From: an uncultured Dongia sp.
Lineage (GTDB): Bacteria; Pseudomonadota; Alphaproteobacteria; Dongiales; Dongiaceae
Assembly (NCBI RefSeq): GCF_936916975.1
Contig: NZ_CAKZGO010000014.1
Location: 1-64,000 of the forward strand
Length of the DNA stretch: 64,000 bases
Reading direction: 5' to 3'
Within the stretch, counting starts at the first letter, position 1. Each line of letters begins with the position of its first letter. A program made the position numbers and the translations under genes. Below, piece after piece: positions 4,488-13,865 of this stretch. The notes under the pieces are model-generated. The model was not told the origin of the DNA. It made no database searches and worked only from the letters and a program-made list of their open reading frames with translations.

Positions 4488-4955
4488 ATGTATCCCCGTA
4501 CCACCGACATGGCCTTAATGCTGGGCCGCTGCCGGCCGCGCACCAAGGCGGTCTATGCCTATTGGGATTCCAAGCGGGCGGGGCGGCGCATGCCGGCGCG
4601 GCGGGATATCGATCCGGTCGAGATGAAGCCCTGGCTGACTGGTATACAGCTGGTCGATGTCAGCCATAACCCGCGCCGCCTGGTCTACCGCCTGGTGGGC
4701 GATCTCGACGTCAGTTTTCGTGGCTACAACCCCACCGGCCGTACGGTCGAAGAATGCAGTGTCGGCTTCAGCGCCGAAGAATCACTGCGGAATTACGATA
4801 TCGTCATCACCGAGCGCCGGCCGGTCTATGACTGGTCGGACTATGTTAGCCAGTCGGGCTATATGCGCAGCCAGGAAGGCCTGCTGCTGCCGCTCTCCGA
4901 TGACGACGATTTGGTCAACATGGTGATGACCTTCGCCGAAGTGGATGTGAAATAG
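4488..4955 (+). CDS. PAS-domain protein (PAS_5/DUF1488-like family of alphaproteobacteria)
   Basis: A protein of about 155 residues that is essentially one PAS-like domain. It has the pattern of short single-domain PAS proteins common in alphaproteobacteria: an N-terminal helix [16 protein letters not shown], then [19 protein letters not shown] and a C-terminal LLLPLSDD strand. No output domain is attached. The start MYPRTTD is chosen because the longer reading runs into the kbl promoter region; MALMLG seven codons on is also possible. It probably senses a small ligand or acts as an adaptor. The partner is unknown. Confidence 0.65.
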
Positions 4956-4983: not shown

Positions 4984-7900
4984 TCAGTTCTCCCCGCCGC
5001 GGCCGAGACTCTTGGCCATCACCAGATAGAGTTTGCCGACATCGGCGGTGATAATGGCGGCATTGAGCACGGCCTCTGGATCGGCCTTGGCCGATTGGGT
5101 GAGCAGATCCTCGAACTTCTTGATGTAGCGGTCGACGATGTCGTGGAAACGCTCGTCGCGCTGATAGCGCTGCTCGATCGCGGGGATCACATAGCTGTCC
5201 TTGTTGCGGAACAGCCGGCGGGCGAAGATCGAGCGGTCACCTTCGCGATAGCGCTTCCAGATGTCCTCCGGGATCTCGTTGTCGAGCAGCGAATGAATAT
5301 CAAGTGCAAGGCCGTTGAGCTCTTCGATCATCACCGAAGCCGCACGGAGAAAGCTGTCGCGGGTCGAATTGTTCTGGGTCTCGCGCAGCTTGTCGATGCG
5401 CTCAAGCGCGATCTGCGAGGTCTTGGCAAGCTCCAGGCTCTGGCCCCGGAACACTTCACCGAGTTCGGCGGCCTTTGATTGCGCGAGATCGAGGGCGCGG
5501 CCGAAACCTTCCGCCTGCCGCTCGAAGCTCTGCCCGATGGCACCGACGCGGCCGGCAGCATTTTCAGCGGCCCGGCTCATCGAATCGATGCGCTTGTCGA
5601 TATCGGTGCCGAGGCCGGAGAGATGCTGGTTCATGCGGGCGGCGGCCTGTGCCAGCGATTCCACCTGGCGGTTCAAAATCTCGCTCGCCTGCTGTGCATC
5701 ACCGCGGGCGCCCTCGGCGCTGGCCTTGGCCGACAAGGCGGCGTCGGAGAATTCCTTGGCCTGGGCGCGCAGCTGGCCGCGCACTTGTTCCGCCATGTCA
5801 TGGACCTTGACCGAGAGGTCGGAGAGTTCGGTGATCTGTTCGGCCACCGCCGCCTTGACGCCGCTCACCTGCTGCGCGGCCTTCTTGGTAACCTGCGACA
5901 AAGCTTCGGCGCCATCGCGGAACAGCTGGATGGTTTCCTTGGCCTCGCGCGTGCTCTCCGTCGTTGTCGCGCGCAGGAACTCAGCGAGGTTCTGCGCCGA
6001 GATGTTGAGGGTGGAGAGCTGATGCTGGCCCTCCTTGCCCACCGCCGACAATTGCTCGACCCGCTGCCCCAGCGTGACATTCAACTGCTGCTGCCGGCCG
6101 ACGGCCTGGTCGGTGATGGTGGAAAGGATCTCTGCCTGCGCGGTGAGTGAGCGGCCCATCTGCTCCAGCTTGTCCCGGGCCATTTCGGAGGCTTCCGACA
6201 ATTGCCGGGCATGGCCTTCGTAAAGACCGGCCAGTTCCGCCGTGCGCTTGCCGCCTTCTTCGGTAGCGGCTTTGACCAATTCGCTCTGGCGCGTCACGTC
6301 CTGGTGCAGCAGTTCAGATTTTTCAAGCGCGCGGCTGGCGACAGCTTCCAGTGCCGAGAGACCTTCGCGCATCTGCTGCTGCAGTTCACCCGCAGTGCCG
6401 GACGCCTTGGTCGCCGCTTCGCGCAGCGTGTCGGCCTCGGTACGGAACACGGTGCCGATGACGCGGGCTTCGACCTCGACCTTTTGCGTGACGGCCGACA
6501 ATTCATCGATCTGGATCTGCAGCGCGTTGCGGATCTCACTGGTCGCGGCCTGGGTGCGCGTCAGCGCCACACCGAGATCGTCATTCTGCCGCATCAACGT
6601 CTGGCCGAGTTCAATGGCCTGCAGCCCCGCAGTCTCCGTGGCGGCTTTGAGATTGGCGGCATTCTTTTGCACGATCGCCTGCAGCGCATCGGCCAAATCG
6701 CTCGCCTGCCGCTGCATGACGCGGCCGGCTTCCAGGGCGCGTTCGTTGATTTCAAGACCGGCAAGATTGGATTGCTTGGCCTGGTCGGCGAGCGCGTCAC
6801 GCATGGCGATCGCAACCTGCGCCGCCTGTTCCGCGGCCTTGCCCAAGGTGATCGCCTGTTCGTCGGCGCTGGCATGGAGCCTGTCGCTATGCGTGATGAT
6901 GTCGCCAAAGCGGCGGTCGATCTCGGCATATTGATCGGCCAGACGCGCCCGCACGGTGTCGCCGGCACGTTCGCCGGCACCTGCCAGCGCTTCACCGTGC
7001 TCGGCGGTCACTTCCTCGAACCGCCTGGTGCTCTCCGCCATCATGGCGGCGAGATTTTCCGCCTGGACGCGGGCGGCGGCACCCAATCCTTCCGTCTGTT
7101 GCACGGCAGCCGCGGTCGCTGCGGCGATTTCCTGCGCCTGCAATCGGAGTGCGCCGGCGAAATGCTCGGCCGCATTCTTGGACGCAGCGATCAGCTCGTC
7201 GCGCTGGGCATGTGTGACACCTTCCAGCGCTGCCGACCGGCTGGCGACGGCTTCGGCGGCATTGACGAACTCATCAGCCTGGCGTCGCAGGATGTCACGG
7301 AAGCCTTCCGCGGCGGCGGTCGCCGATTCCACCAGCTGGTCGCGCTGGCTTAGAATCGTACCATCGAGCGCCGTCGTGCGTGTGATGAGCGTTGCGGTGA
7401 GGCCTTCCATGCCGGAGATCTGCCGCTCGATCTCGCCCTTCAAGCGGGCGATGGCACCATCGCCGGCACTTTGCACGGCGCCAGCCATGGCGAGGCTCTC
7501 GGCCGCCACCGCATCGCTGAGCTGCTTCACCTTGCCGGCAAGGTCTTCTGACATCTGGTGCAGGCTATCGCCATGGGCGGTGAGTTCGCCGCGGATGAGA
7601 TCGCTTGCCGCGATTCCGGCTTCGGCGAGGCGCGCGCGCTGGGCGGCCATCGCGGTCTCAAGCGCCGCGGCGCGCTCCAGCACCTCGGTCACATTGCCGG
7701 TGATGGCGGCTTCATTGGCGCGCAAGCGCACATCCACGCTATTGGCGTGGGTGTCCATCGCAGCTTGTTGGCGCTCGATTTCGGCGCGCAGTTTTTCCAG
7801 CGCCTGATCGGTGCTGGCCTGCAAGGCAGCCGAAAGGTTGTTGCTTTCCGAGCCGACAGTGGCGCTGAGCAGCGCCACCTTGGCGGCAAGGCCCGCGGCC

Positions 7901-10803
7901 ATCTCGTTGAGGCTGTCGCCATGGGTTGCAAGTTCGCGGCGAATAAGGTCGCTGGCTGCCAACCCGGCGTCAGCGAGACGTCCGCGCTGAGCCACCATGG
8001 CAGCTTCAAGGGCGGTGGCGCGTTCCAGCACCTCGTTCACATTGGCGGTTATGGCGGTCTCGTTGGCGCGCATGCGCTCGTCGACGCTGTCGGCATGCTG
8101 GCTCATCGCCGCCTGCTGACGCTCGATCTCCCCGCGCATTTTGCCGAGCGCCTGGTCGCCGGCGGCCTGTAGCGACCGGGTGAGGGCGACGCCCTCCGCG
8201 TCCACTGCCGCACTCAACAGCGCCACGTTGGCGGCAAGTCCTGCTGCCATCTCGTTGAGGCTGACGGCGTGCTTGTCCAATTCGCCGCGCACCATGCCGC
8301 TGGCTTCCGTGCCGGCCGCCAGCAACCGCTCGCGCTGGCTGGCGATGGTGTTATCAAGGGCCTTGGTCTCGGCGACGATGGCAGCGACGCTGGCAGTGAC
8401 GGCGGATTCATTCTCGCGCAGGCGCTGCGCCAGGCGTTCGGCGGCACGGTCGGCCGCCTGTTCGAGGAGATGGCCCTGCGCCTCAATCGATGTGCCAAGG
8501 CGTCGATTGGCGGCATCCTGCGCATCGGAGAGAACGATAAGTCGTTCTTCCTGGCGCTTTAGCAAGACGGCAAAGCGGTCCGCATGGCTTTCGGCCGCCG
8601 TATCGAGATGGCCGGTGGCAAGCTCGACCGCAGCCACGATCGCTGCCTGACGCTGGTCGTTGGCGGCGCCAAGCTCGGCGATCCTGGTCGTCTCGGCTTC
8701 GATATTTTGCTTCAGGCGCTGGGCGGCGGCATCGGCTGCCAGCGCCAGGCGCTGTGCTTGATGATCCACCTTGCCCACCAGCGCCGCTGTCTGCTCGCCG
8801 GTGGTACCGGCCACGGCCTCGATCTCCTTCAGCAGTTCGGCAAAGCGCAGGCCGATCTGTTCGCCGACACGGCCGGTCGAGTCCTGGAAATCGCTGGCCT
8901 CGGCGCGCAAGGCGGTCTTCACCGCCTGATTCTGTTCGCTGATCTTGTCCATGAGTGCACGGATCATGGTGGCGGTATCGCCCGACATGCGGTCCAGTGA
9001 CCCGCGGAATTGCTCGGCGGCGGTGAGGGCGGCACTGGTCAGGCGCTCGGCCTGGGTGCGGGTGGTCTCCTCCAGCGCCGCATTGTCGCTGCGGGCGCGG
9101 GTCGAACTTTCGTTGACGATGTCGCCGATGCGGGTGAGGGAGGTGACGAAATCCTCCGCCAGGGTCTTCGCGGCGGCAACCGACAGATCGCCTTCCTCGC
9201 GCATCTGGCGCTGGATCTCGGCGGTCTTGCGCATGACTTCGCCGACCGTGGCGGTGGCGGTGGCGGAGACCAGTTCGTGATGACGGCGGAGCGTATTGGC
9301 AAAACGCTCGGCACTCGCTTCCGCTTGGTCGTGCATCTCGCGACTCTGGCGTTCGATGGCGGCGAGCACCGCGCTGATGCGCGTCTCGGTGGCGGCGGTG
9401 GCGGCGGCGATGCTGGCCTGCTCGGCCTCGGAACGGGCACCCAGCGTATCGCCGGCGACTTCAAAGCTCCGATCGAGCGCGGAGAGATGGCCCGCCATGG
9501 TCTGGTCCAATTGGCGGTAACGCTCAGCAATCTTGTCTTCCGCCTGCTTCAGGCTGGAAATCTCGCCGGCGATTTCGCCGCGCATGAGGGCAAAGGCATC
9601 GGTGGTGCGCTCTGCCAGACGTGCTGCCTGCGCCGTCAGCGCTGCCTGCAATTCCTCGCCGGCATCGAGTGCCTGGGCTTTCGCGGCATTGATGCCTTGC
9701 AGCTGCAGCGCCAGGCCCTGCGCCACGTCATTGGCGTGACGCCCGGCCAGGGTAGTGATCTCGACGACCACCTGGCGCAGCGCACCTTCCGCATCGGCGG
9801 TGTTGCGCTTGCCGGCTTCGATCGCGTCGCCGGCTTCGCGCGCCAGGCGCTCGAGTTGCTGGTTGAATTCCTTGGTGGCACGGCCGACGATATCGCTGAT
9901 GGTGGCCAATTGCTGGTCGCCGGCTTCCGCGAGCGCGCGCCCTTCGCGCCTCGCCGATTCACCCGCTTCGTCCAGCCTGCGGCCGATACCGGTGAGTTCG
10001 TTGCGCAGGCCTGCTGTGGCTTTCTCTGCACTGTCGGCGAGAATCTCCGCCTGCCGCTCCACCGCATCGCGCACTGTGGCACCGTGGTCGAGCACGCGGT
10101 CGAGAATGGCCGTGATGTCCTGGCGCCGCGCTTCGAAGGCAGCCACAACGCGGTCGACTGACTCGGTGGCGATGCCCTCAAGGGCGGTACTTTCCTGCTC
10201 GCCAGCACGCTTCAAGGCATCCTTCTGCTCGGCCAGAGTGGCTTGCATCTCGCCCAGCAGTTGGCGTTGCGTGGCCAGTTGCGCCTCGACAGCGCGGGTC
10301 TCGGCGCGGGCGGCCTCAGCTACATGGTCGAGATCGCCGCGCTGGTGCTGGAAGCGGCCCTCGATCTGCGACAGGGCTGCAGCGGCACCCTCGGTCGCAG
10401 CCTTCAACTCGATGGTCTGGCGGCGGATGGCGTCGGCGACATTGCTGACGCGCTGCTCCGCCTGTGGGTTGGGATAGGTCAGCATGTTGAGCTGCTGGGC
10501 AAGCAGCGCCGTCTGGCGTTCGAGATCGCGGCCGCGCATGACATAGCCGATGACGACCCAGACGAAGACCGCCGGGGCAAATAGTGCGATGATGATCTGG
10601 GCGAGTTCCGAGGGCAGCAGATCCTGGAGGTTCTCGAGGCCGACGGCATCGGCCACATGCCAGCCATAGGTGACGAACCACGCCAATGTCAGGACCGCAC
10701 CGAGCAGGACCGCGCGATGATGGTGCTTGGTGCCGGGGTCGCCGCCCGCAGCCGCTTTCAGCAGGCCGCGCGCTGTCCCGGTTTCCTGATCCCCTTTACC
10801 CAT
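4984..10803 (-). CDS. Giant two-TM coiled-coil protein, TipN/GPR-like polar organiser candidate
   Basis: A protein of about 1939 aa. After a short cytoplasmic N-terminus it has two membrane segments (about residues 31-50 and 68-88), then RGRDLERQTALLAQQL, then roughly 1750 residues of Ala/Glu/Gln/Arg-rich predicted coiled coil. A compact conserved-looking C-terminus ends with a segment containing AVLNAAIITADVGKLYLVMAK. Residues around 850-1100 contain tandem 116-residue repeats. This layout matches Caulobacter TipN and the Agrobacterium growth-pole-ring protein GPR, both large membrane-anchored coiled-coil polar proteins. Orthology is inference. The second Met is chosen because GAGGGG precedes it. 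It is monocistronic and convergent with the PAS gene. Confidence 0.75.
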   Translation of the reverse strand: MGKGDQETGTARGLLKAAAGGDPGTKHHHRAVLLGAVLTLAWFVTYGWHVADAVGLENLQDLLPSELAQIIIALFAPAVFVWVVIGYVMRGRDLERQTALLAQQLNMLTYPNPQAEQRVSNVADAIRRQTIELKAATEGAAAALSQIEGRFQHQRGDLDHVAEAARAETRAVEAQLATQRQLLGEMQATLAEQKDALKRAGEQESTALEGIATESVDRVVAAFEARRQDITAILDRVLDHGATVRDAVERQAEILADSAEKATAGLRNELTGIGRRLDEAGESARREGRALAEAGDQQLATISDIVGRATKEFNQQLERLAREAGDAIEAGKRNTADAEGALRQVVVEITTLAGRHANDVAQGLALQLQGINAAKAQALDAGEELQAALTAQAARLAERTTDAFALMRGEIAGEISSLKQAEDKIAERYRQLDQTMAGHLSALDRSFEVAGDTLGARSEAEQASIAAATAATETRISAVLAAIERQSREMHDQAEASAERFANTLRRHHELVSATATATVGEVMRKTAEIQRQMREEGDLSVAAAKTLAEDFVTSLTRIGDIVNESSTRARSDNAALEETTRTQAERLTSAALTAAEQFRGSLDRMSGDTATMIRALMDKISEQNQAVKTALRAEASDFQDSTGRVGEQIGLRFAELLKEIEAVAGTTGEQTAALVGKVDHQAQRLALAADAAAQRLKQNIEAETTRIAELGAANDQRQAAIVAAVELATGHLDTAAESHADRFAVLLKRQEERLIVLSDAQDAANRRLGTSIEAQGHLLEQAADRAAERLAQRLRENESAVTASVAAIVAETKALDNTIASQRERLLAAGTEASGMVRGELDKHAVSLNEMAAGLAANVALLSAAVDAEGVALTRSLQAAGDQALGKMRGEIERQQAAMSQHADSVDERMRANETAITANVNEVLERATALEAAMVAQRGRLADAGLAASDLIRRELATHGDSLNEMAAGLAAKVALLSATVGSESNNLSAALQASTDQALEKLRAEIERQQAAMDTHANSVDVRLRANEAAITGNVTEVLERAAALETAMAAQRARLAEAGIAASDLIRGELTAHGDSLHQMSEDLAGKVKQLSDAVAAESLAMAGAVQSAGDGAIARLKGEIERQISGMEGLTATLITRTTALDGTILSQRDQLVESATAAAEGFRDILRRQADEFVNAAEAVASRSAALEGVTHAQRDELIAASKNAAEHFAGALRLQAQEIAAATAAAVQQTEGLGAAARVQAENLAAMMAESTRRFEEVTAEHGEALAGAGERAGDTVRARLADQYAEIDRRFGDIITHSDRLHASADEQAITLGKAAEQAAQVAIAMRDALADQAKQSNLAGLEINERALEAGRVMQRQASDLADALQAIVQKNAANLKAATETAGLQAIELGQTLMRQNDDLGVALTRTQAATSEIRNALQIQIDELSAVTQKVEVEARVIGTVFRTEADTLREAATKASGTAGELQQQMREGLSALEAVASRALEKSELLHQDVTRQSELVKAATEEGGKRTAELAGLYEGHARQLSEASEMARDKLEQMGRSLTAQAEILSTITDQAVGRQQQLNVTLGQRVEQLSAVGKEGQHQLSTLNISAQNLAEFLRATTTESTREAKETIQLFRDGAEALSQVTKKAAQQVSGVKAAVAEQITELSDLSVKVHDMAEQVRGQLRAQAKEFSDAALSAKASAEGARGDAQQASEILNRQVESLAQAAARMNQHLSGLGTDIDKRIDSMSRAAENAAGRVGAIGQSFERQAEGFGRALDLAQSKAAELGEVFRGQSLELAKTSQIALERIDKLRETQNNSTRDSFLRAASVMIEELNGLALDIHSLLDNEIPEDIWKRYREGDRSIFARRLFRNKDSYVIPAIEQRYQRDERFHDIVDRYIKKFEDLLTQSAKADPEAVLNAAIITADVGKLYLVMAKSLGRGGEN
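7216..8259 (-). repeat. Tandem 348-bp (116-residue) repeats inside the giant coiled-coil gene
   Basis: Three consecutive 348-bp units. The motif encoding LNEMAAGLAA recurs exactly 348 bp apart (minus-strand positions about 8259 and 7911, with a degenerate third copy near 7563). Each unit also carries GEIERQQAAM-like, LRANEAAIT-like and GRLADAGLAASDLIR-like segments. Units one and two are very similar and unit three diverges. This indicates recent internal duplication lengthening the coiled coil. Confidence 0.8.
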
Positions 10804-10955
10804 CACAAGCCCCTCACACGCCCTTGGCCGCCCGAACATGCTGCATGTAGAGCGCGACGCGGCCGCAACCCCAACCCATAGCTCAGGCAGTAAATGAAGG
10901 GATTACACTAAGCCATTGTTCCAACAGGTGCAATTGCCGGCGCGTGACAAGGCCG

Positions 10956-10993
10956 TAAAAACAACGGCCTCACCCGATCCGGGTGAGGCCGTT
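10956..10993 (-). terminator. Rho-independent terminator of the EF-hand gene
   Basis: AACGGCCTCACCC and GGGTGAGGCCGTT form a perfect 13-bp stem, extendable to 14 bp, around GATCC. Read on the minus strand it is followed by GTTTTT. It lies 43 bp after the EF-hand stop codon. The rest of 10804-10955 is the presumed promoter region of the giant gene, where I identify no specific motif. Confidence 0.88.
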
Positions 10994-11036
10994 GAGAATC
11001 ACTCACGTGGCGCAATGCGGGCGCTCGCGGCCGGGA

Positions 11037-11471
11037 TCAATTTCGGTCTTGGTCGCGGCCATCGGTCCGGCGGATGAAGGGATTTTTGTCGCCCCGATAC
11101 CGGTCGTCGTCCCAGTCTCGTTGATCCCAGCCGCCCTGGCTATTGCCGGTCTGGCTTTTGTGCCAGGACTTGCTCGTGTTGTAGCTCGCGTAGCGCCGAT
11201 TCAGATATTCATTGAGGTAGCTCTGGTATTCGGCCCGGGTGAGATGCTTCTTGGGCACGCCGTTCAGCCGATCATAGCCGTGCTTTTCGGCCCATTTCCA
11301 TTCCTTCTTGCTGATCAGACCGTCGCGGTTCTGGTCGACCTGAGCCCAAGCCTGTCTGTCGTTGTAGATCTTGTGTTCCTTGGCGGCGGCGGGGCTCGCG
11401 GTCGCCAGTGCGGCGCTGGCCACCACGGCCAAGACGGCGGCGAGGGAGCCAAAGCGCGTGGCAATCGACAT
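11037..11471 (-). CDS. Secreted EF-hand calcium-binding protein
   Basis: A 144-residue exported protein. The start MSIATRF is preceded by AAGGAA and begins a signal peptide (hydrophobic core LAAVLAVVASAALA, cleavage near SPAAAKE). One clear EF-hand loop, DQNRDGLISKKEW, follows at about residues 45-57. A possible second, degenerate hand lies around LTRAEYQSYLNEYLNRR. The C-terminus is Asp/Arg/Trp-rich and low in complexity. It probably binds Ca2+ in the periplasm; the role is unknown. A strong terminator follows. Confidence 0.8.
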   Translation of the reverse strand: MSIATRFGSLAAVLAVVASAALATASPAAAKEHKIYNDRQAWAQVDQNRDGLISKKEWKWAEKHGYDRLNGVPKKHLTRAEYQSYLNEYLNRRYASYNTSKSWHKSQTGNSQGGWDQRDWDDDRYRGDKNPFIRRTDGRDQDRN

Positions 11472-11588
11472 GATCGTTCCTTCCCTGAAGCAGCGCCATC
11501 CGGGCGCCGACATGAAGTTCCACGGTAGGAACAGACGAACCCCGCGACAGGGTTCGATCACGTTCAGGTGACGGTATCAGCCGACGAT

Positions 11589-13742
11589 CTACGCGGCCTT
11601 GCTGCCGTGTTTCTGCAGCAATCCCAGGATTTCCGCCGCGGCCTTGGGAATATTGGTGCCGGGGCCGAAAATGGCAGCGACACCGGCTTCGCGCAGCATC
11701 GGGTAATCCTGCGCCGGGATGACGCCGCCGCAGATGACGCGGATGTCGTCGGCACCCTGATCCTTCAAGGCCTGGATCAGTTGCGGCACCAGGGTCTTGT
11801 GCCCCGCCGCCTGTGACGAGACACCGATGACGTGGACGTCGTTCTCGATCGCCTGGCGCGCGGCCTCTTCCGGGATCTGGAACAGCGGCCCCACATCGAC
11901 ATCGAAGCCGAGATCGGCAAAGGCGGTGGCGATGATCTTGGCGCCGCGGTCATGGCCGTCCTGGCCCAGCTTCACCACCAGCATGCGCGGCCGCCTGCCT
12001 TCGGCGGTGGCGAAATCCTGGATGCTGCGCTGGATGGCGGCAAAGTCAGCGTCGTCGCGATAGGCGGCGCCATAGACGCCGGCGATCGAGCGGATCTCCG
12101 CCTTGTGGCGCGTGTAGACGACTTCAAGCGCGCTGGAGACTTCGCCCACGGACGCGCGGGCGCGCATCGCGTCGACCGCAAGTGCCAGCAGATTGCCACT
12201 GCCCTCCTTGGCGGCCTGGGTGAGGGCGTCGAGCGCTGCCTTTACCTTGACCGGGTCGCGCTTCGCCTTCATGGCGTTCAGCCGTTCGATCTGCGACAGG
12301 CGCACCTTGCTGTTGTCGATGTCGAGCACGTCGACATGGGTCGCCTCGTTGGATTGGTATTTGTTGACGCCGACGATGATGTCCTCGCCGCGATCAATGC
12401 GCGCCTGGCGCTTGGCGGCCGCTTCCTCGATGCGCAGTTTCGGCATGCCGCTTTCGACCGCTTTGGTCATGCCGCCCAATGCTTCCACTTCCGCGATCAG
12501 CTTCTCGGCATGGGCGACCAGGCTTGCGGTCAGGTTCTCGACGTAATAGCTGCCGGCCAAGGGATCGATGACGGCCGGAATGCCGCTCTCCTCCTGGATC
12601 ACCAGTTGCGTGTTGCGTGCGATGTTGGCGGAAAAGGGTGTCGGCAAGGCGATGGCTTCATCCAGCGCATTGGTGTGCAGCGATTGCGTGCCGCCGAGCA
12701 CCGCCGCCATCGCTTCGATGGTCGTCCGGATCACGTTGTTATAGGGATCCTGCTCCTGCAGCGAGACGCCGGACGTTTGACAATGCGTGCGCAGTGCCGA
12801 GGATTGCGGGTCCTTTGGGTCGAACTGCACCATCATCTTCGCCCACAGATAGCGCGCGGCGCGGAGCTTGGCGATCTCCATGAAGAAGTTCATGCCGATG
12901 GCAAAGAAGAAGGAGAGGCGCGGTGCGAATTCGTCGACCTTCAAACCCTTCGACAAAGCGGCGCGCACATATTCGAGACCATCAGCCAAGGTGAAGGCCA
13001 ATTCCTGCACCGCATTGGCTCCGGCTTCCTGCATGTGATAGCCGCTGATCGAAATCGAATTGAATTTCGGCATGTTCTGCGCGGTGTATTCGATGATGTC
13101 GGCAACGATGCGCATCGAGGGTGCCGGCGGATAGATATAGGTGTTGCGGACCATGAACTCCTTGAGGATGTCGTTCTGGATCGTGCCCGACAATTTCGCC
13201 GCCGGCACGCCCTGCTCCTCACCGGCGACGATGAAGGCCGCCAGCACGGGGAGGACCGCGCCGTTCATGGTCATGCTGACCGACATCTTGTCCAAGGGGA
13301 TGCCGTCGAACAGGATCTTCATGTCCTCGACGGAATCGATGGCGACGCCGGCCTTGCCCACATCGCCCATGACGCGCGGATGGTCGCTGTCGTAACCGCG
13401 ATGTGTCGCTAGGTCGAAGGCGACGGAAAGGCCCATCTGCCCGCGGCGCAGATTCTCGCGGTAGAAGGCGTTGGAATCCTCGGCGGTGGAAAACCCGGCA
13501 TATTGCCTGATGGTCCAGGGGCGGTTGGCATACATGGTGGCACGCGGGCCGCGGGTATAGGGTGCGAGGCCCGGCAGCGAGCCCAGGCTCTCCAGCCCCT
13601 CGAGGTCGGCTTCCGTGTAGAGCGCCTTCAGCGTGATACCTTCCGGCGTGGCGCGGTCGAGGCTTGCCGGATCGGCGCCTTTCAGGTCCTTTGCGGCCAG
13701 CTTCTGCCAGTCAGCCAGGGTCTTTTTCGGAAAATCCGCCAC
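11589..13742 (-). CDS. scpA: Methylmalonyl-CoA mutase, single-chain type
   Basis: An adenosylcobalamin-dependent mutase of 717 aa that interconverts (R)-methylmalonyl-CoA and succinyl-CoA in propionate, odd-chain and branched-chain catabolism. The N-terminal TIM-barrel carries the substrate-site segment [20 protein letters not shown]. The C-terminal B12 domain (about residues 585-715) has the cobalt-ligand motif [10 protein letters not shown]. The track starts at one GTG; a second GTG two codons later lies 7 bp after AGGAGG and is preferred. No small subunit or MeaB chaperone gene is adjacent. It could equally be named mcmA or mutB. Confidence 0.93.
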
Positions 13743-13865
13743 GTCCACTCCTCCTCAGGCATCTTCTGAGCTGCATTCTTTCGCAGTGCAGCATTTCGCG
13801 CAAGGTAGCAGAGCGGGGGCGGCGGAGTCCAGACGACCCCTCGGTCCCGGGTTCTCGGGTGGGGC

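Follow-up and report, generated by a model that had tools for sequence, protein, structure and literature searches.

TipN of Caulobacter is a new-pole protein that acts with ParA (PMC10127582) and has a published length of 882 aa (PMC13170164). In the Rhizobiales, GPR of Agrobacterium (Atu1348; 2,115 aa) and its S. meliloti homologue RgsE (SMc00190; 2,089 aa, 42% identical to GPR; PMC7327166) are polar, cytoplasmic proteins with a two-TM membrane anchor (PMC7327166, PMC8262873), and the C terminus of GPR is essential (PMC8262873). TipN, a landmark, and GPR/RgsE, which form a growth ring, have been studied as separate systems. The similarity of GPR to TipN has already been published (PMC8546619), and the two have been called 'analogous' (PMC13170164), without their common parts being named; the comparison made here names them. 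Distant RgsE homologues were reported in Rhodospirillales and Emcibacterales by Krol et al. in 2020 (PMC7327166), and a homologue in Dongia is thus not wholly new for the lineage. New here are the explicit common end modules, their range across the class, forms that are nearly rodless and a pairing with Hpt-domain genes.

The Dongia gene encodes a three-part protein

We analysed a window of 64,000 nucleotides of Dongia DNA, in which a reading frame with zero internal stops on translation specifies a protein of 1,939 aa (Table 1). The gene is present in a single copy in this genome (5.48 Mb). Alternative upstream starts (ATG/GTG) lie at 10839 and 10806. The ATG at 10803 was taken as the start because the alignment with the nearest relative shows similarity beginning at MGKGDQ and because GAGGGG lies just 5' of this codon. 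Many genomes carry homologues of the same three-part layout, and a chance long open reading frame in GC-rich DNA is therefore excluded. A first-pass annotation had described a protein of about 1939 residues with two N-terminal TM segments, a long Ala/Glu/Gln coiled coil and a compact C-terminal domain, arranged as in TipN and GPR. The length and the TM pair proved exact, the compact domain was recovered as a helical unit and the likeness in layout is supported by homology at both ends; the description of the central region required revision, as set out below.

Table 1. Coordinates of the Dongia locus and of the Hpt-domain genes at related loci
Feature	Position	Strand	Basis or remark
CDS, TipN/GPR/RgsE family: TM hairpin, helical rod and C-terminal domain, 1,939 aa	4984..10803	-	translation; same-layout homologues across the class
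C-terminal domain, residues 1812-1939, seven helices	4987..5370	-	family alignment
Helical rod, residues ~131-1810	5374..10413	-	no proline; apolar period 3.61 (heptad/hendecad mixture)
Tandem duplication within rod, 348-bp (116-aa) unit, 2.1 copies	7528..8263	-	TRF
N-terminal TM hairpin, residues 27-90	10534..10725	-	hydropathy; alignment; profile matches to RgsE and TipN relatives
Strong intrinsic-terminator-like hairpin: 15-bp stem, 3-nt loop, T-run	10962..10994	-	between upstream gene and rod-protein gene
Methylmalonyl-CoA mutase gene	11589..13748	-	conserved upstream neighbour; 8 loci, two families
PAS_5 single-domain protein gene	4488-4955	+	convergent with organiser gene
Small EF-hand protein	11037-11474	-	between mutase and organiser genes
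Hpt-domain genes at related loci	L029 5087-5455; L030 5652-5945; L040; L045; L046; L113; L114; L115; L118		

The C-terminal domain is shared with TipN and RgsE

Scans of the whole protein against Pfam and NCBIfam returned only noise and no family for the C-terminal domain. A PDB sequence search with this domain found no relative, and in PDB fold searches neither the Dongia nor the TipN domain gave a significant match. AlphaFold2 confidently predicted a bundle of seven helices for the Dongia domain (~128 aa; pLDDT 90.3, pTM 0.85) and a similar helix order for that of TipN (pLDDT 92.6), from an alignment that excluded the RgsE and Sphingomonas rows.

For the comparison with TipN, HfaD, a holdfast protein, served to locate 79 Caulobacteraceae genomes, and the C-terminal profile matched in 56 of them. 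In one of these genomes PleD is 100% identical to Caulobacter PleD, whose solved structure is in the PDB, and the matching open reading frame is exactly 882 aa from the first ATG. We identify this frame as Caulobacter TipN on the basis of species, length and layout. In S. meliloti the matching CDS, annotated 'kinesin', was assigned as RgsE because its 2,089 aa are the published RgsE length. The relationship to GPR rests on the published homology between RgsE and GPR (PMC7327166), RgsE being the protein compared directly here.

Queried by tblastn, the Dongia C-terminal domain matched RgsE at 5e-20, with 37% identity over 111 aa. An HMM built from the Dongia family only reached TipN at 1.3e-5 and most Caulobacteraceae relatives at 2.5e-11 to 1e-5, with one of them (L112) at only 0.13; the wider family HMM reached TipN at 1.3e-9. 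Profile-profile comparison of the Dongia-family and TipN domains gave 98.5% probability (E 1.4e-15), with the TipN domain diverged in its middle. The Dongia-only profile matches fell on the exact C-termini of TipN and its relatives, and the tblastn match likewise on that of RgsE. The conserved domain falls within the part of the protein whose importance has been established for GPR. Rods such as these yield many weak spurious HMM matches, and the similarity to TipN and GPR might accordingly reflect nothing beyond the common composition of long coiled coils. This explanation is largely refuted and we regard it as highly improbable, since the C-terminal domain is not a coiled coil, the matches just described link it to both TipN and RgsE, and the TM profile found no match among reversed decoys.

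A TM hairpin and an adjoining block are conserved at the N terminus

Hydropathy maxima were found at residues 32-50 (1.57) and 71-89 (2.47). The hairpin consists of TM1, a short loop predicted to be periplasmic, TM2 and then a basic stretch, RGRDLER; both ends of the protein are predicted to be cytoplasmic, a topology drawn from the charge pattern only. The alignment shows a conserved block after the TM segments, approximately LPHELG...P...WL..Y..RG..L...L..L.YP...AE.RV..I...LRRQ.

A Dongia-family-only HMM of the TM segments and this block matched RgsE at 2.3e-8. The family-wide N-terminal HMM, which includes the next helix, matched TipN at 4.5e-7 and Caulobacteraceae relatives at 4e-8 to 2.5e-16. 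With most of the following helix removed, TipN itself was marginal (0.02) and most relatives scored 1e-6 to 1e-9, and the hairpin part by itself gave only weak values against RgsE (0.05-5). Profile similarity beyond coiled-coil bias, which the first-pass annotation had proposed as a check, was thus present in both the TM region and the C-terminal domain. As judged from sequence, the Dongia protein is homologous to TipN and RgsE at both ends, the hairpin itself being marginal for TipN, and has the same overall layout. RgsE is similar in size, with two N-terminal TM segments and a helical rod of ~1,700 residues. TipN also has two TM segments followed by a long helical region, but its rod is much shorter and it carries a proline-rich N-terminal extension of ~150 residues.

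The central region is a helical rod of mixed periodicity

The rod has 0 Pro, 0 Cys and 0 Trp and consists of 20.7% Ala, 10% Leu, 10% Glu and 7.5% Gln. Its hydrophobic period is 3.60-3.61 residues (power 7.8, against a maximum of 1.7 in shuffles); at 3.5 the power reaches just 1.7. We prefer 'helical rod' to classical coiled coil because the 3.61 period is intermediate between the hendecad (3.67) and the heptad (3.5). The long Ala/Glu/Gln-rich helix of the first-pass annotation therefore stands, but not as a canonical heptad coiled coil. Self-BLAST of the rod returned no rows, although TRF did detect the internal repeat listed in Table 1.

Rod periodicity varies with lineage. The Dongia family has a period of 3.61, TipN types have 3.58-3.60 and many other proteins 3.57; RgsE and four further RgsE-like loci show a hendecad period of 3.64-3.66. 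The RgsE rod itself is a near-pure hendecad (3.65) with 17 prolines. This difference is consistent with GPR bearing an apolipoprotein label and the Dongia protein none; PF01442 (apolipoprotein) had no match in the latter even at E 1. Because of this and of the period of 3.61 rather than 3.65, we filed the protein in the broad TipN/GPR/RgsE family and not in the GPR subtype.

The hendecad component in so long an amphipathic helix, together with the finding that Caulobacter becomes more sensitive to envelope stress when TipN is lost (PMC7403779), would fit a structural or lipid-binding rod, tethered to the membrane, that lends stability to the envelope but does not mark the pole, as the label on GPR might suggest. 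The missing PF01442 match speaks against this, as does conservation, which among the parts compared was best in the two end modules and lower in the rod. We consider such a role improbable, slightly more so than the growth-pole ring discussed below.

The family extends across the Alphaproteobacteria

With the last 126 aa as query, 34 of 61 related genomes gave matches, located at the C-termini of long open frames. Nearly all full proteins from the matching loci had two N-terminal TM segments, a rod and the same end. Among 387 evenly sampled Alphaproteobacteria genomes at least 155 carried the C-terminal domain, and 149 of these 155 had a single copy, which fits one gene known under different names. 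All 138 matches in a phylum-wide sample fell in Alphaproteobacteria, the number of genomes of other classes in that sample not being given. The new profile thus detects the family class-wide.

Protein lengths in the family run from ~330 to ~2,750 aa, the longest open frame being 2,752 aa. Near-rodless proteins of 330-377 aa, in which the C-terminal domain follows the TM hairpin almost directly, were seen at six loci. Four of them (L134, L135, L136 and L137) belong to family f23, which is probably Rhodobacteraceae; the other two (L138 and L139) appear to be short second copies, extended at the C terminus.

We tentatively propose a wider reading, one that we would not yet put on an equal footing with its denial. 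Hundreds of unnamed proteins, together with TipN and GPR/RgsE, may represent a single ancestral pole organiser of the Alphaproteobacteria, whose defining parts are the TM hairpin and the C-terminal helical domain that no catalogue yet lists. Between these parts the rod would be a freely variable spacer, from almost none to ~2,400 residues, and lineages could have tuned this anchor-and-dock device by altering how long the rod is and how its helix repeats, with a landmark (TipN) at one extreme and a growth ring (GPR) at the other.

A TipN-like role at the pole is favoured in Dongia

The Dongia genome encodes PopZ, MipZ and MreB (MreB E 8e-150), with a second ParA-family match in addition to MipZ. 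Because of these MreB, PopZ and MipZ genes we prefer to see the protein as a TipN-like scaffold of the pole and not as a growth ring. The preference is strengthened by Krol et al., who reported that MreB and the Rhizobiales Rgs set are mutually exclusive, the host group of RgsE being without MreB, and who suggested that RgsE homologues do something else outside the Rhizobiales (PMC7327166). The roles of RgsE and GPR are Rhizobiales-specific, so that function may differ between orders. Across the class, co-occurrence with PopZ was not significant (135 of 155 genomes with a TipN/GPR-like gene against 185 of 232; p = 0.07), which weighs against the reading as a pole scaffold.

A ring of the GPR/RgsE type at the growth pole, driving polar elongation in Dongia, would accord with a length nearer to GPR and RgsE than to TipN and with the presence of both end modules in RgsE. 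Length is, however, a poor guide in a family where it varies so widely, and both the MreB gene and a rod period outside the range of RgsE-type loci count against a ring, which we judge unlikely.

The gene is, in our assessment, probably the Dongia orthologue of Caulobacter tipN and Rhizobiales gpr/rgsE, its product a clustered membrane rod for which a TipN-like role at the pole is likelier than a GPR-like ring. The two TM helices would anchor the protein in the inner membrane and leave both of its ends in the cytoplasm, and the rod, up to ~250 nm long if it is a single extended helix (0.15 nm per residue), may self-associate into bundles through its apolar face. Many copies could then cluster at one pole, where the seven-helix C-terminal domain might gather or dock partners. 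A protein so placed would mark the pole and serve as a scaffold in segregating the chromosome, placing the flagellum or keeping the pole stable.

Gene neighbourhood

The methylmalonyl-CoA mutase gene lies upstream of the organiser gene in 8 loci from two families. This synteny of orthologues, the other check that had been proposed, supports orthology; the linkage is probably a synteny anchor and not a functional one. No recognised polarity genes were found in the gene neighbourhood, a point against the pole-scaffold reading.

The organiser gene has a divergently transcribed Hpt-domain gene on its upstream side in nine loci (Table 1), among them S. meliloti rgsE and Sphingomonas, and this pairing suggests a link to a phosphorelay. 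The divergent Hpt gene is absent at the Dongia and Caulobacter loci, and its absence in Dongia is a further point against a growth ring of the RgsE type. The S. meliloti locus with this pairing (L029) comes from CP090106.1, a 3.7-Mb sequence labelled as plasmid pSymB; given its rgsE, folate and cytochrome bc1 genes, it looks like a mislabelled chromosome.

The PAS_5 protein scored 59.5 bits with the MopJ model, far short of the cut-off of 200, and its identity as MopJ was rejected. The EF-hand protein is apparently secreted, having a signal-like N-terminus, and shows a weak resemblance to lanmodulin, below the cut-off (E 0.02).
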